Shown here: positions 9,089 through 30,802 of the stretch, piece after piece
How the letters are laid out: each line of letters begins with the position of its first letter
How positions within the stretch are numbered: position 1 is the first letter of the stretch
Source: Armatimonadota bacterium
GTDB lineage: Bacteria; Armatimonadota; Zipacnadia; Zipacnadales; JABUFB01
DNA: 64,000 nt
Assembly (NCBI GenBank): GCA_013314775.1
Contig: JABUFB010000005.1
Span: 124,001 to 188,000, forward strand
Reading direction: 5' to 3'
Notes under the pieces: generated by a model
Databases searched by the model: none
The model's input: the letters and a program-made list of their open reading frames with translations, nothing else
Told to the model about the DNA's origin: nothing
Translations under genes and position numbers: made by a program

Positions 9089-9906
9089 GGCAACTCCCCC
9101 ATGAGTCTGTGGGTATTCCGTACGGTGGTGCGGGCAAGATCGGCGGCCGGGATGTTCCGGATCTTGGCGATGCCGGATACGATTGCCGGCAGGTTCGCGG
9201 GCTCGTTGAGCGCCTCGCCTTCCGGCCCAAGCGTCACCGAAGGCCGGAAGGGTTCAGGGGGTAGCATTGCCGGGGCATCGGTCTCCACGAGCAGGCGTTC
9301 CAGCGGAACCGCCGCGAGGCCCGCTCGGGCGCGCTTGTGGGCCGGATCCAGCACGCTCCCGGCGAAAGAGCAGTATGCACCCATCTCCACCAGGGGCGTG
9401 ACCATCTCCGCTGCACCGCCCCAGGCGTGGATCACCATCCCTGCGCGAGGCGGCCCCATCTCGTCGAGAATACCAAGCAGCATGCCCCATGCGCGCAGGC
9501 AGTGGATCATTGCGGGCAGGCCGAGGCGATTCGCCAGATCAAGCTGGGATCGGAACACCTCCTCCTGCTCTGTCTCGTCACGGTCCCGAACCCAACGATC
9601 GAGCCCGATTTCTCCCAATCCGCGGCAGCCTTCCTTGAGAAATGATTCCAGGCGCTCCAGCCAGCCCTTGGACCGCTCGCGAACGAACCACGGGTGCAGT
9701 CCCAGGCAAGGGATCACCTGCGGCCAGCGGCGGCTGATCTCCAGCACTGTCTCCCAGTCACCTTCGTGAGTTCCGTTGCAGATAAGACAGGCCACGCCAG
9801 CCTGCAGACTCCGGCGGATCATGTCATCCACCAGCCCCTCCAGAACCTCCTCCTGCAGGTGGCAGTGTGCGTCAACCAGGCCTGTCAGCGTCGGCGCATC
9901 GGTCAC
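9067..9906 (-). CDS. TatD family metal-dependent hydrolase
   Basis: This 279-residue amidohydrolase-fold protein has the complete TatD metal site. HCH (14-16) lies in the first strand, GEIGLD supplies the Glu, MIHCLR and IHAWGG supply His ligands, and ETDAPAM supplies the Asp. TatD proteins are reported as 3'-5' exonucleases or D-aminoacyl-tRNA deacylase-like enzymes; the substrate here is unknown. The GTG start overlaps the stop of the upstream DUF5696-like gene as GTGA, and its own end overlaps tcdA by 22 bases, so all three are likely one transcript. Confidence 0.85.
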   Translation of the reverse strand: MTDAPTLTGLVDAHCHLQEEVLEGLVDDMIRRSLQAGVACLICNGTHEGDWETVLEISRRWPQVIPCLGLHPWFVRERSKGWLERLESFLKEGCRGLGEIGLDRWVRDRDETEQEEVFRSQLDLANRLGLPAMIHCLRAWGMLLGILDEMGPPRAGMVIHAWGGAAEMVTPLVEMGAYCSFAGSVLDPAHKRARAGLAAVPLERLLVETDAPAMLPPEPFRPSVTLGPEGEALNEPANLPAIVSGIAKIRNIPAADLARTTVRNTHRLMGELPCLTTAS

Positions 9907-12900
9907 CAGGTCACCCTGAATCTCCCGGCGCCCGGCTGCCCTACTCTGAACACCACGCGCCCGTTTTCGATGCGGTGCGGCACGACACCCATATCTTCCG
10001 CGGTTCCCGCCGCAAGCGCTCGGACCTCTACTCGCGCGAGGTCGATGGTCGCGGCCGGGACCGCCCGCTTCGGGTCTATGCTCACCGTGAACTCTCGGTC
10101 GCGCGGATAGGGGAAGACCGTCAGGCTATCCTGGGCCAGGTTGACCTTCACCGAACCGTCCGTGGCGATGACCCCGAAATCAACCATCGTGCCCGCTGGG
10201 TTGGTATGGGCACTGAAGTCGGCACGGACCGCCGCCCAGCGCTCACAGGCCTCGTCGAAGTCGGCCAGTTCGATGTTGGTGATCTGTCCATCTTGTCGGG
10301 TCACGCGCAGCTCGCCCAACAGATACGCCCGGTCACCCGCCACGGGTCCCTTGAGGGCCACGCGGCCCTGGGCGTCGTAGAGCCCTGCCACGATTGCGTA
10401 GCGGTCCCAGGGCTCGTCCGGTACCGTTATATCATGCGGGCCGTCCACGATGACGTCGCCGGGCTTCCAGTCCCGGACCGGCTTGCTGAAGCCGTGGTCA
10501 TTCTGAAATACAATCCCCTGGTTGCCACCCGCGGATGGGTTGGTGAAATGCACGAAGCTGATAGGGTCACGGTTCAAGACCTGCTTCACATCCCACTCGT
10601 ATGTGAGTCGGATCTTGTCTCCGCCCATATACTCAAAGCTGCGCAGGCGCGGTTGGATGTCGTTCTCGGCCAGATAGGGCATATGGAAATAGGTGCGGGC
10701 GTCGGCGAACAGGTACTCGGGACACCGGGCGAAGTCCGCGAACTTGCCGCCGTCGACTACGGTGCCGACCTCGGTGCCGGGCCCCAATGCCAGGAAGCCC
10801 CACTGCGGGAGAGTGCGGCCCTCCACGTCCCACGGCTCCTCTCCCCAGTTGACCCAGAGGGTGAGGCCAGTCTCGTACTCGATCTTCTGTCGCATCCGTT
10901 CGTTCGCCGCCAGCGCCGCGCTCCCGGTTACAAGCCGACCGTCGACCTCGTAGGCGATCCGCACCGGCCTGCTGTTTCCGGTCAGCCGCTGGACCGCGTG
11001 CATCAGGTGGTGTTCCTTCGCCACCCACTGCACATTAGCGGTCTGGGCGTTACCGATAAACCCCGCATGTCCGTAGGCCAGTTCCTGCGCCCGGTACTTG
11101 TCCACCTGCCAGGGCGCGCCGGTGTCCATGCCCCACTGGTGGTTGTAGCCCCTGGTGAACCAGCGCTCGTAATACCCCATGCCGTGGTTGACCATCTGCG
11201 GGTGGATCTTGAGCAGGTCGAAGTCCAGGAAGGGAACGTGGTTTTCACCGCCGGCGACCTGGGCCTCCACGCCGTCCACCTGCCCCGCCCAGTAGAAATG
11301 GTTGTGGCCCTCGCCGAACAGCGGGCCCTCGTGGGTCTGGCGCATATAGTCGAACAGTTCCGCATCATAGATGACCTTTGCGCGGCACATCGCGGCCATG
11401 GGTTGGTCCGCTTCGTGGTCAAGCTGGTGCCACGGCGGCACGCAGGTGTGCACATCGAGATAGGCCGCAGTAGTGGCGAACCGCCGGTGGATTTCGGGGG
11501 CATTCTGCTGAGCATATCCCAGCGCGCGGTTGCACTTGAGCCCGTAGCTCTGAACGCCGGTTCCCGCATTGAACCAGGCCTTGGATGGTTCGCCGTTTGC
11601 CAGCAGCACGCGCGCCGCCGGATCGTAGGATGGTGCGTCTGGATACAGGTCGATGTAGTTTTCATGCAACGACCAGACATAACCGCACTCATTGGCGGCC
11701 TTGCCGAACTCCACCATGCCCTCATCGCCCCCGTATCGCGCATTGGCGGGCAGGTGGTCCGGGAGCTTCACGTCGTATCCGTAGCACTGCCAGTCGTGGG
11801 AGATGATGGCCAGGTGATCCACGCCATTGTCCTTGAGATTGCGCAGGTTTTCAGCATCGCCCTGGTAAGTGCCCTTGTAGTGGCCCCAGATGTCCAGCAT
11901 CACCCGGTCCCCGAGCAAGTCCAGGTAGCTTGACGGCTGCCATGGAATGTTTGGAAACACCTCGTTCACGTTGGGCGACACGCAGACATAGCCGGTCTCG
12001 AAAAGCGGGTTGCGGGTGCCGTCAGTTTTCGGCTCGTACACGGAAGCGCCCTGTGGGCAGCGCGAGGCATTAGTCTTCGTCCAGTCAAGGTACCTGCCCA
12101 CGAACAGCAGGTCGGCTGGGAGCCACTCCACCGAGCCTCGGCTCCAGTCCGCGGGAAGGTAGGGGATGGTGATGGTCCGGCGCAAGGGAGCTCCGGCCAC
12201 GTTACCCAGCGAGAAACCCTCCGCCACCGGTTCATCGCAGGAGACTTCCACTGTGAGGGCTTTGGCCTGGATGCCGAACTTCCAGGTCGCCCGCACGGGA
12301 CCGCCCGGAAGGGCGTATTCCCAGACCACCCGCACCTTGCCTGCGTCGACACCAGCCGAGACGAGCCTGGCCTTCGCGTCCTTTCCTGTGTCCCCAAAGT
12401 TGATAGCCCCTCCGCCGGCAGGTTGGAAAGGTTTGCCTGCGTCAACAGACACCCGGAGATCGTCAAGCGTCCCGGTCCGTGGCTCGTAAATGTAGGTAAT
12501 GTCCGCATCTGCAGCCTGGTAAACGAACTCGAACCCGTCGCCTGCCCTCCGCACGGCGTTCTGGCAGTCCAGGAGATTTGACGGCGCGATCCCTTGGCCT
12601 GATGCATTGCTCAGACGCACCAGACTGACATCGGCAGTTGCCTTATAAGCGCGACTGTTGACGATCCGTTCCAGCAGGACCGACTGAGCATCAGCGCCAG
12701 CGCCGCAAGTGATCGTTGCGTCGCCGAAGTACGAGTAGTCGAAAGAAGGGCTATTCTTCGGGCCTGGTTCGGTCTGCAGGCGGAGCGTGATCCGCTCACC
12801 CGCATAGCGCGACAAATCAAAATTGTAGTCCCTCCATTCGCCCTTGTCGTAGTGAACCCGCAGGAGTTCCTCCCGGTTATCCTGCTGGATCACCGTGGCG

Positions 12901-13301
12901 CTGAAGGTCACGCCGTCGCTCTTGCCGGGCACGGCGACGTCTGGAAGCATCGCAATCCCGAATCTGAGGGTGATCGGGCGCTGGTCGGGAAGCTGCAGAA
13001 GGTAGTCGACCCAGGCGGGGCCAGTCGGCACGCGCCACGGGCAGTGCAGCAGGATCGCCGGGCGGCCCAGGAGCCACTCCGCAGGGGAGTATGAGATGCC
13101 GCTGGTGGGCTCGAAATGCCCGGTCCACGATGGCGGCATGTCTACCTGGTCGCCCTCGTAGGATCGGTACGAGACCTGATATACCCCGATGTCCGACAAT
13201 GCGGTCTCACCCGGCGGCAACGCGACGGCCTCCGGCTCCCCGATAGCGGGCAAGGCGGCGAGGATCAACAATGCCAACAGCACGGCGTATTCCACGGACA
13301 T
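9903..13301 (-). CDS. Large exported DUF5696-like protein, probable glycoside hydrolase
   Basis: This 1132-residue protein has a signal peptide (about residues 1-22). Beta-rich regions run to about 440. A putative TIM-barrel region follows with DHLAIISHDWQCYGYD, GYVWSLHENYIDLYPDAP, TAAYLDVHTCVPP and GPLFGEGHNHFYWAG, and beta domains end the protein. This arrangement, with its aromatic/acidic barrel strands, resembles DUF5696 proteins and, distantly, GH101-type endo-alpha-N-acetylgalactosaminidases. The catalytic residues are not assigned with confidence. I start at the ATG with AAGAGG 8 bases ahead. The gene is divergent from the sugar ABC importer across a gap of about 175 bases, suggesting shared control and a role in supplying its substrate. 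Confidence 0.6.
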   Translation of the reverse strand: MSVEYAVLLALLILAALPAIGEPEAVALPPGETALSDIGVYQVSYRSYEGDQVDMPPSWTGHFEPTSGISYSPAEWLLGRPAILLHCPWRVPTGPAWVDYLLQLPDQRPITLRFGIAMLPDVAVPGKSDGVTFSATVIQQDNREELLRVHYDKGEWRDYNFDLSRYAGERITLRLQTEPGPKNSPSFDYSYFGDATITCGAGADAQSVLLERIVNSRAYKATADVSLVRLSNASGQGIAPSNLLDCQNAVRRAGDGFEFVYQAADADITYIYEPRTGTLDDLRVSVDAGKPFQPAGGGAINFGDTGKDAKARLVSAGVDAGKVRVVWEYALPGGPVRATWKFGIQAKALTVEVSCDEPVAEGFSLGNVAGAPLRRTITIPYLPADWSRGSVEWLPADLLFVGRYLDWTKTNASRCPQGASVYEPKTDGTRNPLFETGYVCVSPNVNEVFPNIPWQPSSYLDLLGDRVMLDIWGHYKGTYQGDAENLRNLKDNGVDHLAIISHDWQCYGYDVKLPDHLPANARYGGDEGMVEFGKAANECGYVWSLHENYIDLYPDAPSYDPAARVLLANGEPSKAWFNAGTGVQSYGLKCNRALGYAQQNAPEIHRRFATTAAYLDVHTCVPPWHQLDHEADQPMAAMCRAKVIYDAELFDYMRQTHEGPLFGEGHNHFYWAGQVDGVEAQVAGGENHVPFLDFDLLKIHPQMVNHGMGYYERWFTRGYNHQWGMDTGAPWQVDKYRAQELAYGHAGFIGNAQTANVQWVAKEHHLMHAVQRLTGNSRPVRIAYEVDGRLVTGSAALAANERMRQKIEYETGLTLWVNWGEEPWDVEGRTLPQWGFLALGPGTEVGTVVDGGKFADFARCPEYLFADARTYFHMPYLAENDIQPRLRSFEYMGGDKIRLTYEWDVKQVLNRDPISFVHFTNPSAGGNQGIVFQNDHGFSKPVRDWKPGDVIVDGPHDITVPDEPWDRYAIVAGLYDAQGRVALKGPVAGDRAYLLGELRVTRQDGQITNIELADFDEACERWAAVRADFSAHTNPAGTMVDFGVIATDGSVKVNLAQDSLTVFPYPRDREFTVSIDPKRAVPAATIDLARVEVRALAAGTAEDMGVVPHRIENGRVVFRVGQPGAGRFRVTW

Positions 13302-13476
13302 TGGGAGCACCTCTTCACGGGTTCGGACATTTCTGACCCGTCCGTTCTTTCGCCGTAGCCTCGTCGCGTCCTTCCACGAGTGTCAGGAGGAGAACGGCGC
13401 CTGCCGTGCGAAACAGACATTGTGCATACGGACCGGGAGCGTTGCGCCGGGCCGCTATTCCTCTGGAGCCACGTTC

Positions 13477-17432: not shown

Positions 17433-20400
17433 TCATTCGCCGGGCTCGGCCTGTCGTCGGGCAGCACAGTCCTCGAGCCTTTTCACCAGGTCCGCAACGC
17501 TGAACGGTTTGGCGAGCAGGACGTCGGCCAGACCACTCATGGCCTCCTCGTCGGGCTCGATGCGGCCCGTGACGACGATTGCGATGGGGCGCGGGTCCAG
17601 ATCCCTCAAGGCCTGCAGCGCCGCAACACCACCGCCGCCAGGCATGACGAGATCGGTCACCAGCGCGTCGAATGGGTAGCTGCGCAGGGACTCTGCGGCC
17701 GCGTCGCCGGACGCCACTGTGACCACCACGTGCCCGCGCTGGGTAAGTACGTCGGTGATCAGTTCCCGCAGGCCTGGCTCGTCCTCGGCGACCAGCACCC
17801 GAAGACCCGAGACCGGGGCGCCGCTTTGCTGCACGGTTCTGCCGGGGCGTGAGGAACGGGCCTCTTCGTCGGTGCAAGCGGGAATGCGCAGGGTGAAAGT
17901 GCTGCCCCTGCCCCACGTGCTGCTGGCCTCGAGCGTCCCGCCGTGGCCCCGCATGATGCCGAGAGAAACCGAGAGCCCGAGACCACTGCCGGGCAGACGG
18001 CTGTCTCCCCGGACGCCCTTAGTCGTGAAGAACGGCTCGAAGATGTGGGGCATGTGCTCGGGCTTGATCCCGGTGCCGGTGTCAACCACGTCTGCGACCG
18101 CCACCCGACCACCGCCCCCGTCTACCTCGCTTCGGGTGCGGAGGGTCACGACGCCACCGACCGGCATGGCGTGGCATGCGTTGATGATGAGATTGAGGAA
18201 TACCTGCTCCAGTTGCCCCGGGTCCGCCATGACTGTGACCCCGCCGCTGCGGTAGTCCCGGACCACCGTAACATCGCTGATTTCCAGTTGGCGCGACGCC
18301 ACGCTCAGGGCGGCATCGATGGCCTGTTCCAGCGTCACCGGTATTCGCATTGGCTCGCGCGGCCGCGCGAAGGTCACGAGATTGTGACAGATCTCGGCCC
18401 CTCGTGCGGTCGACTCAAGCACGACCTCGGTGAGCCGGCTGAACCCCTCGGGGTCACGCCGGTCCTCGGCGAGTTCGGCGGCCAGCATCATGCTCGCCAG
18501 CAGATTATTGAACTCGTGGGCGACCCCAGCCGCGAGCTGCCCGATGGCCGCCAGACGTTGTGCGTCGGCGATGCGTCGGCGCTCTGTGACATCGTGGAAG
18601 ACCCCAAGCAGTGCGCTGATCCCATCCAGCTCAACCCGTCTCGCGCTAATGTCCGCATAGAAGACGCTCCTGTCGCGCCGCAGAACGGGCACGTCCTTGA
18701 CCACGCTCAACTCGCCGCTGGCCATGGCGTGGAACTGGCGCCTGACATCTTCGAAGGATTCCGGCGGATGGATGTCGCGGATGCCCATGGTCAGGAGTTC
18801 ATCGGTGGTATACCCGATCATCTCGCTGAACGCAGGGTTTGCTGTCAATATCCGTTCCGTTGCGATGCCCACCGCCAGAAGCCCTTCATTGGTGGCATCG
18901 AAAAGGGATCGGAAGCGTTGCTCGGAAGCCCTCAGCGCGTCCTCGGCAAGTTGTCTGTCCGTGATGTCGACCGTGAAGCCGATCACCTGCACAGCGCGCC
19001 CAGTCTCGTCATGAACGTTGGCGGCCTTGGTATTCACCATCCGCACTTCGCCGTTGGCACGGATGATGCGGTACGAGAAGTCGAGCTCATCGGCGCTTTC
19101 CGCGTTCAGCACGTACTCCGCAATCCGCCGGTCCGCTGGGTGCACCAGTTCCAGCCAGGCATCCTCCCGGTTCAGAAAATCCGCAGCCGGCCTGCCGGTC
19201 AGCCTCTCGAAAGCTGGGCTAATGTACTCCAGGCGGCGGCCATCAACCGAACTCATCCAGAAAACGGCGGGCATGAGCTCGGCCATTTTCCGGAGTCGCT
19301 CTTCGGAGCTGCGCAATGCCTGTTCCGCGCGCTTACGCTCAATAATGTTCCCCAGGAAGGAGCAATAGACAGCGACCAACTCCTGGGTCACCGGGTCTAG
19401 CGGTCGGCGCTGGCGGGCATTGTCGTTGTAGAAGATTCCCACCACCCGGTCGGCGGCGCGGATCTGGGTCCGGGCCGTCCATCCGGGACCGATGTCGCGC
19501 ATCTCTCGCCCATCCCACTCTACGAGGGCCCCCTGGGACGCAGTCCAGCGGGGCTGTCCCGGCTCGCGCAATCCTGCAGCTTCGGACCGGATGTCCGCGG
19601 GGATGCGCAGTTCGCGCTCATCGCTGGTGGACCCGTCGAGGTGAGTGCCATAAGTCCCGCGCAAATGATCGCCTTCCGTCAGATACACGGAGCAGCGGTC
19701 GAGACCAAGGGCCTCGCGCGGGAGCTCTACGGCTTTGCGCAGAAGTGCGTCCATCTCATCACACTGGAGCAACTCATCCGCAATCGCCACCAGTGATCGC
19801 AGACCGCTGGCCATGAGACGCTGGCGCTGTTCGGCCTGCCTGCGTTCGGTGATGTCATGGACGTAGACGGCAAGCCGCGTGACAGTGCCGTCCTCGCTCA
19901 GGACAGGGTAGATCGAAGTCAGGAAACGGCTATCGCCGCGCGTCTCCTCGAAACGCGCCGGTTGCCTGGTACGCAGGACCATCTCGCCGCGCTGGCGGCG
20001 CAGCTGGACCACCGACGCATCCATGTGCTCATAGACCTCAGTTCCGACAAGGTCTTCGACGCGCTTTCCGAAGGTCCGTGCGCAGGCATCGTTGATTGCA
20101 AGGATCCGCCAATCTGGATCGACGAGAATCGCCAGATCGTTGCTGGCGTTGAGGAGAGCCCACGCTGTATCCTCGCTGGCGCGAAGGGCTGCCTCGGCCT
20201 CGCGACGGGCCGATACGTCTCGCGAGACTCCCAGGACAGAGACGACGTTCCCTGATTCATTCAACAGGGGCACGAGACGAGTGTCCAGCCAGATGTGACG
20301 TGTGCCCAGGTCGATGCAGCTTTCACGGGAAACGGATCTGCCGGTTTCGAAGGCCTCCGCGAGAGCCGCCCGCTGGCTCGCCGCGACGCTCTGCGGGAAG

Positions 20401-20858
20401 AGGGAGGAACGCGGCTGGCCAATCAGGTCTGCGGCCGTGCGTCCCAGGACGTTGGCCGCGACCTCATTGACGTATTCGATCTGGTCGTCGCGCCCGATGA
20501 TGAACACTAGGTCCTGGGTTGCGTCAATGATGCGCCGGAAAATGCGGTCGGTGCCGCTGTCCGACGGGGAGATCACAACTATCCACCCGCCGTTTGCAAG
20601 GGACGCGATCACCACATGCGCCGCTAGCTCGCCCCCGGGCGTTCGGAAGCCGCAGGCGCGGCCAGACGGCCCCGTCGCTTCGGGAGCCCTTCCGTCCAGC
20701 GAGAGCTCCAGCCACGACACCTCTCCCGACCCGTTGCAGAAACCGAAGAGTTCCCGGGCAGCCGGGTTGGCATACGCTATCCGGGAATCGCTATCCAGCA
20801 AGAGCGCGGCGTGCGGGATCGTCTCGCACAGTCCCCGTACATCGGCCCACTCCGACAT
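17433..20858 (-). CDS. Soluble hybrid sensor histidine kinase with five PAS, one GAF and a receiver domain
   Basis: This 1141-residue protein has no membrane segment, so it senses inside the cell. In order it has PAS domains at about 5-100, 110-230 and 235-355, a GAF domain at 360-515, and PAS domains at 525-645 and 650-765. The histidine-kinase core follows, with the phospho-acceptor His781 in VAHEFNN. The ATPase domain carries NLIINACHAM, DTGTGI and GSGLGLS. A C-terminal receiver has phospho-acceptor Asp1069 in VTDLVMPG and LAKPF. The output is presumably phosphotransfer within the protein or to a distant regulator, as no partner gene is adjacent. I start at MSEWADV, with GGGAG 6 bases ahead. 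Confidence 0.9.
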   Translation of the reverse strand: MSEWADVRGLCETIPHAALLLDSDSRIAYANPAARELFGFCNGSGEVSWLELSLDGRAPEATGPSGRACGFRTPGGELAAHVVIASLANGGWIVVISPSDSGTDRIFRRIIDATQDLVFIIGRDDQIEYVNEVAANVLGRTAADLIGQPRSSLFPQSVAASQRAALAEAFETGRSVSRESCIDLGTRHIWLDTRLVPLLNESGNVVSVLGVSRDVSARREAEAALRASEDTAWALLNASNDLAILVDPDWRILAINDACARTFGKRVEDLVGTEVYEHMDASVVQLRRQRGEMVLRTRQPARFEETRGDSRFLTSIYPVLSEDGTVTRLAVYVHDITERRQAEQRQRLMASGLRSLVAIADELLQCDEMDALLRKAVELPREALGLDRCSVYLTEGDHLRGTYGTHLDGSTSDERELRIPADIRSEAAGLREPGQPRWTASQGALVEWDGREMRDIGPGWTARTQIRAADRVVGIFYNDNARQRRPLDPVTQELVAVYCSFLGNIIERKRAEQALRSSEERLRKMAELMPAVFWMSSVDGRRLEYISPAFERLTGRPAADFLNREDAWLELVHPADRRIAEYVLNAESADELDFSYRIIRANGEVRMVNTKAANVHDETGRAVQVIGFTVDITDRQLAEDALRASEQRFRSLFDATNEGLLAVGIATERILTANPAFSEMIGYTTDELLTMGIRDIHPPESFEDVRRQFHAMASGELSVVKDVPVLRRDRSVFYADISARRVELDGISALLGVFHDVTERRRIADAQRLAAIGQLAAGVAHEFNNLLASMMLAAELAEDRRDPEGFSRLTEVVLESTARGAEICHNLVTFARPREPMRIPVTLEQAIDAALSVASRQLEISDVTVVRDYRSGGVTVMADPGQLEQVFLNLIINACHAMPVGGVVTLRTRSEVDGGGGRVAVADVVDTGTGIKPEHMPHIFEPFFTTKGVRGDSRLPGSGLGLSVSLGIMRGHGGTLEASSTWGRGSTFTLRIPACTDEEARSSRPGRTVQQSGAPVSGLRVLVAEDEPGLRELITDVLTQRGHVVVTVASGDAAAESLRSYPFDALVTDLVMPGGGGVAALQALRDLDPRPIAIVVTGRIEPDEEAMSGLADVLLAKPFSVADLVKRLEDCAARRQAEPGE

Positions 20859-20899
20859 TGGCCACTCCCAGGCCCCCTCTTGGTTGTCGCATTTGCCAC

Positions 20900-20928
20900 A
20901 GTTTAGTCGCTCTCGCCCGGAGCGGCAA
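20900..20928 (-). promoter_or_regulatory. Probable promoter for the hybrid kinase
   Basis: On the minus strand, TTGCCG (20923-20928), a 17-base spacer and TAAACT (20900-20905) match four of six consensus bases in each box. They lie about 40 bases ahead of the chosen start. Confidence 0.45.
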
Positions 20929-20995
20929 GATGCGGGATTTCTCGACGCGCACGACCTGTCCACGGACGTGGGTGGTTTCCATGAGCGCCATGATA

Positions 20996-25891: not shown

Positions 25892-27988
25892 CTAGGGTCT
25901 GATCTGTTCGGTCCGCAGCCGCGCTCCAGCCAAGTTGAGGCGATCCAGCTGCAGGCTCTGCCCCTGTATATTGCGCCAGTTGCCGGGACGCAGAATACCG
26001 GTCTGGGTCGGCTCTATCCTCATCCCCACCAGGCCGGTTGCTGAATGCAGATTCGGCCCATCGACGGCCAGGCGAACCTGGGTGTTGAGTGCTGCCCCTC
26101 CGCGGTTCACCATGCGCAGGGCACTGTTGCCCGTTTCGAGGCTCACCTCAACAGGGTCCGCTCCGGCTCCCTGCAGCCCGCGTATGTCGAAGGTCCGCTC
26201 CTCCGCCGGGCCCGTGATGCCGATGAGCTTGAGCGACTGCAGGTTCATCGCGCTGGGATTCAGCAGGCGCAGCACAGGTTGGTTCGTGTTCACTGCCGAG
26301 CTGCCAAGCCTGATCTGGGCTCCCGTTGCGACGAGATCGGTCACCAGGCCCTTCTGGGTGAAGTTGATGGTGGTGGCCGCGCGGGTCGGGTTCTCGATCT
26401 CGATGGTGTACTCGCGTCCGCGGGAGTTCATGAGCAGCCACGTTTCCGGGTAGTCCGGAGCCGGCGGATTGCCCAGCGGGAAGGTGCGTATGACCCCCGG
26501 TATGCGATTGGCTCCGGTATTCTGGTTCCCGCCCACGTAGTAGGTATTCCCCTGGGGGTCCGAGATCTGCGCCACCCGGGCGGGGGGTGTGACCGACAGG
26601 TAGCTGCTGTCGGCCGCTGCACCCATGCCCGGACCGCCGGCCTCCGTGGGAAGGTTCGGCGCAACGAGAAGCTCTGGCAGGTCATAAGTACCCACCCTGT
26701 TGTACGAACCGTAGGAGAAGGTATTGGCAGCCTTGTTTGTCGTGGCAATGCTCCTGTCGGGGCCGCCGGTCTCAGTAATGGTGTAGGGGGTGTTGTTGTC
26801 GTAGAGCATGAACCGGCGGCTGGCTTCATCGGGCCCGACGTCATAGACGACCACCGCATGGCCGCCGCCGCCGGTGATGCCCATGACCACTCCGTGGGGC
26901 GCGGGCAGGTCTACATGGTCCCGCGCGAAGACCCACGCCTGGTTCGGAGTCTGGTTGTCGATGCGATCCCAAAGGAGCGTGTGCTGCGGCTCGGACAGCT
27001 GGCTTCCTTGCATTTCCATGACGGTCTGCCAGACTTCATCCAGGTTGCGGTTGGTATCGTAGTCCCATACCCACCGTTTGGGATTGGCGATGAACCACGC
27101 GCTGTGCAGAAGTCCGGTCAGGTTGCCGTGCTTCACGCGCAGGCTCGACAGGCTCATGCCGTAGCAGTTGCCGCCACCACCGATACCTTTGTAGCGGGAG
27201 TCATACCAGCTCTGCGCTGCAGGCCGGTGGGTTCCGTCTGCGAACTCTACCGCGGACGCCCCGAAGTAGTTCCGGTATATCGCCCAGGGAATTGTGGGGC
27301 CGCCCCGGTTGGCGACCTTCCAGCCCCATTTGCCCCGGTAGCCGCGAGGCGAGACAATCTGGAAGTTGATGCTCCCACTGGAGCTGTCACCAGTGCGCAC
27401 CTGCATCGGATAGGTCGCGCCCACGGTCACCCCTGTGGTCGGCAACTGGAAGCAAAGGAAGCGCGGGCTGGCGTCGCCCCAGAACAAGATCGGTGTTGTG
27501 CTCAGTTCCACGTTGTTCAGGTAGACTTTGGAGGTCGACCGGAAGTTGTCTCCGATAGCCAATCCGTACTCGCCCTTGGCTCCGTCAGGCGGCGAGACGG
27601 CGCGGAGCACTGGAGGCAGGAGCAGCTTGATTTTCTCCGGGTCAATCCGAGCCCAGGGACTGGGCCTCAGCGCTCGAGTCCCAGGTTCCAGACGCTGAAC
27701 CTTGTCGGCCGGCTCGATCTGCCTGACAAGTTCCTCCTGAACAGGAAGCGGGAGCTTCCTGAATGCGGCCAGGTCCTTTTGCATCGTGGCTTCGGGCATG
27801 TTCTGCGCCTTGAGCAGCGCCGAGAACTCAGCCTCTGGTTGCAGGGACAACTGCACGGCAGGGAGCTTGATGCTTTCCAGGGCTCGGGCTCCCGGAAGTT
27901 GACGTGGCGTACCCTGGCCCCACGAGACGGATGCGACCAGCAGCACGAAGAGCGTAACCATCGAAGCAGTTGGGTGGACTTTACGCAT
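25892..27988 (-). CDS. Exported protein with papain-like Cys-His-Asp/Asn pattern, function unknown
   Basis: This 698-residue protein has a signal peptide (about 1-24). The first 160 residues are rich in leucine, proline and charged residues. A beta-sandwich (IPT/TIG-like, PPDGAKGEYGLAIGDN) runs at about 180-240. A central domain contains GGNCYGMS with Cys275, GGGGHAVVVYD with His377 and LYDNNTPY with Asp397/Asn398. The Cys-His-Asp/Asn order and spacing resemble papain-fold peptidases (C39/transglutaminase-like). The C-terminal half is beta-rich and may bind a surface. I recognise no named family. The start is placed after GGGGAAG, 9 bases upstream. Confidence 0.55.
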   Translation of the reverse strand: MRKVHPTASMVTLFVLLVASVSWGQGTPRQLPGARALESIKLPAVQLSLQPEAEFSALLKAQNMPEATMQKDLAAFRKLPLPVQEELVRQIEPADKVQRLEPGTRALRPSPWARIDPEKIKLLLPPVLRAVSPPDGAKGEYGLAIGDNFRSTSKVYLNNVELSTTPILFWGDASPRFLCFQLPTTGVTVGATYPMQVRTGDSSSGSINFQIVSPRGYRGKWGWKVANRGGPTIPWAIYRNYFGASAVEFADGTHRPAAQSWYDSRYKGIGGGGNCYGMSLSSLRVKHGNLTGLLHSAWFIANPKRWVWDYDTNRNLDEVWQTVMEMQGSQLSEPQHTLLWDRIDNQTPNQAWVFARDHVDLPAPHGVVMGITGGGGHAVVVYDVGPDEASRRFMLYDNNTPYTITETGGPDRSIATTNKAANTFSYGSYNRVGTYDLPELLVAPNLPTEAGGPGMGAAADSSYLSVTPPARVAQISDPQGNTYYVGGNQNTGANRIPGVIRTFPLGNPPAPDYPETWLLMNSRGREYTIEIENPTRAATTINFTQKGLVTDLVATGAQIRLGSSAVNTNQPVLRLLNPSAMNLQSLKLIGITGPAEERTFDIRGLQGAGADPVEVSLETGNSALRMVNRGGAALNTQVRLAVDGPNLHSATGLVGMRIEPTQTGILRPGNWRNIQGQSLQLDRLNLAGARLRTEQIRP

Positions 27989-28099
27989 CGTTCTCACTTC
28001 CCCTCTCACTCAGATAGACGCCTGTTAGCCCCACAACATGCCATTACATTATTCTCGCACCGGGCGCTCTCCGCCAAACCACGATGTTCCGGATCGCGG

Positions 28100-30802
28100 C
28101 TACTCCACCTCCTGGGTGATGATGACATTGTCCACGTACCATGTGGCCTGTGTAGCCAGGCTGGTCACGAATCCCAGCCAGTGCAGTTGCTGGAACTGAT
28201 TGCCCGCGAAAGGCAGGTCCGTCCACCGCTGAGTCTCCTTTCCGAGCGGGGTCAACGAAAGGGAATACGACCGCGCCGCGTCTTCGCCCAGCGGGCAGAC
28301 GAGTTCCACCCGTGTCCAGCTCTCCAGGGGCAGCGTGGTCAGCCGGCGTTGGCCTGCCAGAATATCCCCGTCGGCCTCGAAGGTGATGCTCGGGCCGATG
28401 CAGGCGGGATAACCGGTTTGGTCGCGCAGTTCCACCAGCAGAGCGCCCTCGCCGCCCAGGTACACGTCGAAGCTCAGACGGGCGGTTCCGTCGGTGTAGC
28501 GCGGCTGGTAGAAGAAGTGGGGCTCCCAATCATTGCTCAGGCCGGGGCGGTCGGTGATCTTCAGACTACGTGCGCCTTCTGCTGCTTTCTCGTCGGTCAC
28601 CCGGATCGATGCGCCGCCCTGTTCCCCCGAGACGAAGGAGTTCGCCGGACGCGCGCCCACGGGCGTGTCTTCGAAGCCATCCGCCACCGTCAGCGGTTTG
28701 GGCGGTGGAGGCGGCTCGGGTAGCTTCGTCGGCGAGTGCTGGACCAGTTGCGCACGGGCGACCCACTGAGGGTCGCCATACAGGCCCACCGTCGATGTGT
28801 CGATGGACTTGATCCCCAGTGCCGGCGCCGGCGAGTCCTCCCGGAGCCGGAAGTCGTATGCGCCGGCGTCAACAAACTTCGGGTCGGCGATGATGGAATG
28901 GGTGTCCAGCCCCATCTCTTGCCACTTCGCCCACCTGTGGCCGAAGAAGCGGATGTCGGGGTCAGTCGGGTTCCAATAGCAGTTGTAGTCCCACTCGCCG
29001 ATGGGTTCGTTGCGAGTCAGGCGCTCGCGCAGCCGGGTCTCAGCCATGGGGATGAACAGATCGCCCTGGGTGATGTAGATTATATTGCGGCGGAAGACAT
29101 TGGGCTCCACGGCGGGCCAGCAGGGCCAGAGCATCTGTTGCGCGGAGAAGGCGAACACGTTGTTCTGGATGATGTTCGCATGCCCGCCGTTGTGCTTCAT
29201 CAGGCCCCCGCTGAGAGTGTTGTAAACCACGTTGTTTTCCACGAGATAACCGTTGGTGGTGGCGTCCAGGTAGATGCCCCAACCGATAGCGCTGTAGGGC
29301 CACACGTCGTGAAAGACATTATTGCGGATAACACTGCCCGGCGAGGTCCCCAGGGTGTAGATGGCCCCGCCGTCATTGAGCATCCCGTTCATCACATGGT
29401 GGACATGGTTGAACTCGATGATATTGTCGCGGGTGCGGTTGGGCGCGTCGTCCCAGTTCCAGCCGATGGACATGCCGGAGTAGTTGAAATCGTGGACTTC
29501 ATTATGCGAGATTACGTTGCGGCTGCTTTGCGCCACCCAGATGCCCACTCCCGAAGCGTAGACGTGCCCACCATCATACAGGTGGCAGTTGTCCAGGACG
29601 TTTCCGGCAGATTCTCCGGCATCTTCGGGCGCTCTGACGGTTTCCCCGATCCGCACCGCTCCCGCACCCAGGTCCCGCACGATACACTGCCGGATTACAT
29701 TGTCCCGGCAGCCCCGCCGCAGCCAGATCCCGTAGCCGCCAACGTGGGCCAGTTCACACCCCTCGAAAGCGCAACCTGAAGCGCCGTCAGCCATGATCGC
29801 CGCGGGCACCGTGAAGCATGCCTGGGCGTCACTGTGCCCCCTCGGGTCGATGGTCCAGTCCTGGTGCTCGAAGGTGATGCCGGAGAAGGTCACATTGCAC
29901 ACAGCCAAGCCCAGATCGGGTTCGCCCCGCAGTGCTACCAGCGTTGCCAGCCGTGGGGCGATGACCTGCGCCCGCGCCATGTCCTCGCCGGGCATTGGGA
30001 TATACCTGAGAACCCCGCTCTGCCGGTCGAGATACCATTCTCCCGGTTGATCCAGGAACTCCGGGGAGTTCTCGGCGAAATACCGCTGCTTCGGTCCCCA
30101 TCTCTCGAAGGGCCAGGCGGCCGGGCCGGTGAAAGTGACCTCGGAACTCTCCTCGTTGATGCTCTTGATGAAGAGCCGGGAGACATCCCAGGAGTGGAAG
30201 ACCACCACGTTCACGTCCTCCAAGCCGTCCCAGGTCTCGATGTCACCTGGAACGAAGCGGAAGGCGACATTCGACGGCGCGCTCGCCCCCGGTGGCAGGA
30301 CGGTGCCGGCGGTGTAGAAGTAGCCCTCGTTGGGGGTGCGCGCTCGGGTGCGGCGCGTGCCATTTACGAAGAGCTGCTTCGGGTACCAGCGACCCTCTGC
30401 AACCCCGGGCACAAGCGCCTGCCACACACCGCCTTCGCCCCGCTGCCAGCCAGTGATCTGCGTGCCACCGCTGAGCACCGGCTTCTCGCCCGGATAGGCG
30501 GCATAGGTGATGGGAGCCTGCTCGGACCCCGAGTCCAGCGGTGTAAGGACGAAGGGCTCGGACAACTCGTATCGGCCGGCCCGCATGAGCACCCGGGCCG
30601 GCTCATTCCTCGCGGGCATGGCGCGCAGGCGATCCCGGGCTGCGAAGATGGTCGCCAGCGGACCGTCGGTTCCCGCTTCGTTGGGGGCGGGAATGCTGCC
30701 GGTCCAGGCATCGTTCCCGTTCGGGGCAACGTAGAGCGTGACGGGCTGGGCAAAGGCCGCTGTTGCGGCAATCAGCGCACAGAGGGCAAGCCCTGGTTTC
30801 AT
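28100..30802 (-). CDS. Exported parallel beta-helix protein, GH141-like
   Basis: This 900-residue protein has a signal peptide (about 1-18). YVAPNGNDAWTG and ATIFAARDRLRAMP open a right-handed beta-helix as in GH141 and related PbH1 proteins. The DSGSEQAPITYAAY segment and many NVISHNEVHDFNYSG/NIIQNNVFAF-type coils support the repeat. A C-terminal jelly-roll of about 200 residues follows a proline-rich linker (LPEPPPPPKP) and looks like a carbohydrate-binding module. GH141 members include fucosidases and xylanases; the activity here is inferred only. I start at the ATG with GAGG 8 bases ahead, since the open frame upstream runs into the divergent PL22-like gene. Confidence 0.7.
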   Translation of the reverse strand: MKPGLALCALIAATAAFAQPVTLYVAPNGNDAWTGSIPAPNEAGTDGPLATIFAARDRLRAMPARNEPARVLMRAGRYELSEPFVLTPLDSGSEQAPITYAAYPGEKPVLSGGTQITGWQRGEGGVWQALVPGVAEGRWYPKQLFVNGTRRTRARTPNEGYFYTAGTVLPPGASAPSNVAFRFVPGDIETWDGLEDVNVVVFHSWDVSRLFIKSINEESSEVTFTGPAAWPFERWGPKQRYFAENSPEFLDQPGEWYLDRQSGVLRYIPMPGEDMARAQVIAPRLATLVALRGEPDLGLAVCNVTFSGITFEHQDWTIDPRGHSDAQACFTVPAAIMADGASGCAFEGCELAHVGGYGIWLRRGCRDNVIRQCIVRDLGAGAVRIGETVRAPEDAGESAGNVLDNCHLYDGGHVYASGVGIWVAQSSRNVISHNEVHDFNYSGMSIGWNWDDAPNRTRDNIIEFNHVHHVMNGMLNDGGAIYTLGTSPGSVIRNNVFHDVWPYSAIGWGIYLDATTNGYLVENNVVYNTLSGGLMKHNGGHANIIQNNVFAFSAQQMLWPCWPAVEPNVFRRNIIYITQGDLFIPMAETRLRERLTRNEPIGEWDYNCYWNPTDPDIRFFGHRWAKWQEMGLDTHSIIADPKFVDAGAYDFRLREDSPAPALGIKSIDTSTVGLYGDPQWVARAQLVQHSPTKLPEPPPPPKPLTVADGFEDTPVGARPANSFVSGEQGGASIRVTDEKAAEGARSLKITDRPGLSNDWEPHFFYQPRYTDGTARLSFDVYLGGEGALLVELRDQTGYPACIGPSITFEADGDILAGQRRLTTLPLESWTRVELVCPLGEDAARSYSLSLTPLGKETQRWTDLPFAGNQFQQLHWLGFVTSLATQATWYVDNVIITQEVE

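Follow-up and report, generated by a model that had tools for sequence, protein, structure and literature searches.

Within the window, the whole 64,000-nucleotide stretch of Armatimonadota DNA that was analysed, a minus-strand gene encodes a protein of 698 amino acids (Table 1), or of 705 amino acids if an upstream GTG is taken as an alternative start. The open reading frame claimed for this region in the earlier note proved to be real. Comparison with a 90% identical copy on the public MAG contig JAGPGE010000437 (Armatimonadetes bacterium, MAG JAGPGE01) gave a dN/dS of 0.11 (183 synonymous and 80 non-synonymous changes), indicating purifying selection on the reading frame. Coding was further supported by a GC3 of 0.78 and by same-frame homologues with identities as low as approximately 24–28%. 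The gene is single copy in its own genome, and another genome of its genus carries a copy that is 90% identical. Antisense to it runs an 892-amino-acid ORF (26045–28723, plus strand) that matched in blastp only ORFs at homologous loci; it looks like a shadow of the minus-strand frame.

Neighbouring genes encode GH141-, GH20-, beta-helix- and TIM-barrel-type proteins, the glycan-degrading setting pointed out in the earlier note. All-against-all comparison of the ORFs in the window and at twelve loci with relatives revealed no conserved neighbour. With no neighbour kept beside the gene, its function can hardly be read from the glycan setting. Elsewhere, the window encodes a multi-PAS hybrid histidine kinase with a receiver domain (17436–20963, minus strand) and a DUF5696 protein (9906–13310, minus strand).

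Table 1 Features of the gene and of the protein it encodes (window positions)
Feature	Position	Strand	Basis
Whole gene	25892..27988	-	698 aa; ATG start at 27988, stop at 25892
Signal peptide, residues ~1-25	27914..27988	-	Basic start and hydrophobic stretch; likewise in homologues with intact N-termini
Helical segment, residues ~50-93	27710..27841	-	Conserved L79, P80 and Q84; AlphaFold2 helices at pLDDT ~45-53, rest of model unreliable
IPT/TIG-like sandwich, residues ~121-213	27350..27628	-	Weak TIG matches; missing or substituted in other branches
Proposed papain/C39-like catalytic domain, residues ~214-430	26699..27349	-	Densest invariant block; C39_2 profile match
Cys275, proposed nucleophile	27164..27166	-	Invariant in all aligned members and in L210
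His377, proposed general base	26858..26860	-	Invariant, L210 included; pairs with C39_2 His
Asp397, proposed third triad residue	26798..26800	-	Invariant, L210 included; pairs with C39_2 Asp
Beta-rich C-terminal module, residues ~465-698	25895..26596	-	QI.D..G and RIP motifs

The signal peptide and the beta-rich C terminus described in the earlier note are both visible in the sequence. Its IPT-like sandwich held up in part: a resemblance to TIG domains is present but weak, with TIG matches in 5 of the 23 family members (best E value 0.0055) and an NF058597 match at residues 126–210 with an E value of 0.002, under the cut-off of that model. Across the phylum, large proteins that are otherwise unrelated also contain stretches resembling this region. 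In the C-terminal module, D477 and G480 are invariant in the A1 alignment. The protein contains two cysteines only, at positions 179 and 275, the former of which lies within the IPT-like region.

Full-length or near full-length relatives were found in 20 of the 46 genomes of the class and in two more genomes from another class (G053 and G245), and a profile of the catalytic domain retrieved relatives from 27 of the 291 genomes of the phylum. Four architectures were seen. Besides the IPT-like form of the window gene, there is a form with four LGFP repeats (L060 and L061), which also carries the C-terminal module; a branch with a long N terminus that we call GGHC (L062, L167–L173 and L176), in which L062 ends in a LamG domain; and a minimal form, L210 (570 amino acids; L210:793-2505, minus strand), in which the signal peptide is followed directly by the catalytic domain and then only by the C-terminal module. 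The GGHC branch has a stretch related to the C-terminal module, as judged from the A2–A5 comparison, the score of which is inflated by the presence of L062 in both sets. With shared sequences removed, the main family and the GGHC branch matched with an E value of 2.8e-9 and a score of 68 against a shuffle maximum of 20, indicating that the two branches are homologous. The constant part of these proteins is the catalytic domain with the related C-terminal stretch, and the exchangeable part is the N terminus.

Cys275 (in GGNCYGMS), His377 (in GGHAVVVYD) and Asp397 (in LYDNNTPY) sit where the earlier note had placed a papain-like site. Across the 23 family members, Cys275, His377, Asp397, Asn398, Asn399, Pro401 and Tyr402 are invariant. 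When the alignment was widened to 30 catalytic domains of three architectures by including the LGFP and GGHC branches, Cys275, His377, Asp397, Asn399 and Pro401 remained invariant. L210, which is counted outside this set as a 31st and more divergent domain, keeps the Cys, His and Asp (motifs GNCGGMS, AHTVIPY and IWDSVVSP) and has lost both Asn residues. The third residue had been left as either Asp397 or Asn398. In the LGFP and GGHC branches, Asn398 gives way to Pro, and in L210 both Asn residues are lost, which singles out Asp397. Conservation of Cys275 and His377 had been set beforehand as a check on the papain-like reading, and both are kept in all homologues aligned. Judged from the alignments, the Cys–His–Asp pattern is far beyond chance, because the three residues are invariant both in the 23 full-family members and in the 30 wider catalytic domains. 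Papain and C39 enzymes carry, a few residues ahead of the Cys, a Gln that builds the oxyanion hole. No Gln before the Cys is conserved in the aligned family, and Q259, at position −16, is not conserved.

The absence of a recognised family, as the earlier note had it, was confirmed across Pfam, NCBIfam, PHROGs and the sequences of the PDB. Scans of the protein, the family profile and the relatives against the first three returned no model matching the catalytic region, and sequence searches of the PDB gave no match to it. Pfam PF13529 did not match the protein at E values up to 10, and thus not above its gathering score, nor was the gene returned when its own genome was searched with PF13529 at E values up to 1. 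Plasmid and phage tblastn searches yielded nothing for the catalytic region, the plasmid matches that did appear being due to the LGFP repeats; scanned viral contigs contained no relative; and a literature search found no paper on this protein family. The BtrH_N proteins of the phylum were considered as relatives and judged unrelated by inspection, the family features being missing by eye. In TPR-type lipoproteins of the same order (L186, L188, L189, L191 and L193), the C-terminal part weakly matches BtrH_N; that part looks cysteine-poor by eye and is possibly a degenerate papain-like domain.

For comparison with known enzyme families, Peptidase_C39_2, Peptidase_C1 and Transglut_core profiles were built from the same phylum and aligned with the family profile by HHalign, with shuffled columns as a control. 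The family profile scored 30.3 against C39_2 (E value 5.8e-4), above all shuffles (mean 12.1, s.d. 2.6, maximum 19.5, n = 60), at an HHalign probability of 29% and with a confident alignment over the His–Asp half only (45 columns). In a relaxed alignment, the Cys, His and Asp were each paired with the same residue of C39_2. The GGHC branch alone scored 21.5 against C39_2, just above its shuffle maximum of 20.3 (n = 40). The score of 17.7 against papain C1 fell inside the shuffles (maximum 22–24; 24.2), and that against Transglut_core was 12.1, compared with a shuffle mean of 12.5, so the transglutaminase likeness raised in the earlier note was not upheld. At the profile level, these comparisons point weakly, but specifically, to a papain fold of the C39 kind. 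Of the papain-type reading, then, the conserved Cys–His–Asp site and the weak, specific link to C39_2 stand, and Asn398 and the transglutaminase core find no support.

On this basis, we propose that the gene product is an exported cysteine enzyme whose catalytic domain is papain-like and closest to the C39 type, and that it most likely acts as a peptidase outside the cytoplasmic membrane (probability approximately 0.6); the papain fold, peptide-bond hydrolysis and the substrate are all parts of this proposal that we infer. The attack on the scissile carbonyl would come from Cys275, located where a helix is presumed to begin. Cys275 would be activated by His377, at the head of a hydrophobic strand, and His377 would be held in orientation by Asp397, where the next strand ends. 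The IPT-like N terminus, or the LGFP repeats and other modules in relatives, may bring the enzyme to a surface or a substrate. As far as the sequences tell, this is a family unnamed in the libraries searched, of a familiar enzyme type, and not a new kind of system.

The same triad could instead serve a papain-fold acyltransferase, amidase or crosslinker acting on cell-wall peptides or surface proteins, which we regard as unlikely. The Cys–His–Asp order would be identical, the LGFP repeats of one branch and the LamG domain of L062 are surface- or glycan-binding modules, and the LGFP portion of L061 is matched by an endolysin model from PHROGs; however, the transglutaminase core signal did not rise above shuffles, the BtrH_N proteins of the phylum show none of the family features by eye, and the sole profile link is to C39-type peptidases. 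Somewhat less probable still is a non-papain fold, with either a convergent Cys–His–Asp site or a structural or metal-binding cluster of these residues. The lack of any sequence match to known peptidases, the weak profile signal and the missing Gln would fit such a fold, as would the low pLDDT of the AlphaFold2 models made from two-sequence input (34.9 for residues 211–430 and 31.6 for the full length), but the order, spacing and local contexts of the three residues fit C39_2, whose score exceeded all 60 shuffles, and a disulfide role is unlikely because only one Cys is conserved across the family. That the domain makes a single cut in its own polypeptide or a partner during export, as opposed to being a turnover enzyme, is very improbable: the gene is stand-alone and single copy, and the C39 domains of ABC transporters, which cleave leader peptides, offer a precedent, yet no partner gene is conserved alongside.

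Beyond the exported peptidase proposed here, we tentatively suggest, at somewhat less than even odds, a new papain-fold family that may be largely confined to the phylum, that would build its oxyanion hole without the usual Gln, and in which N-terminal surface-binding modules (IPT-like, LGFP and others) would be exchanged around a catalytic domain and a beta-rich C-terminal module that stay linked. Should the papain-like reading hold, exported proteins of the phylum that the searched libraries leave unnamed would gain a testable triad and a place in the peptidase classification, and would provide an example of a papain-type active site lacking its customary Gln; the broader significance is limited because secreted papain-like enzymes are common.

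Among known systems, the transglutaminase core (PF01841) shares the Cys–His–Asp order but gave a profile score below the shuffle mean. IPT/TIG domain proteins (PF01833) weakly resemble residues ~121–213, but the scores of the protein lie below curated cut-offs and the region is missing or substituted in other branches of the family. Peptidase_C1 (PF00112) has the same Cys–His order, with the Cys at a presumed helix start, whereas the family has Asp where papain has the Asn of Asn-Ser-Trp and has no conserved Gln before the Cys. Peptidase_C39_2 (PF13529; papain-like, clan CA) differs in that the family has GNC(Y/F)GM in place of the usual C39 Cys motif, likewise has no conserved Gln before the Cys, and carries the IPT-like and C-terminal modules; it shares with the family the Cys–His–Asp order, the three residues in register with a score above all shuffles, a hydrophobic strand beginning at GH and a next strand ending in D.
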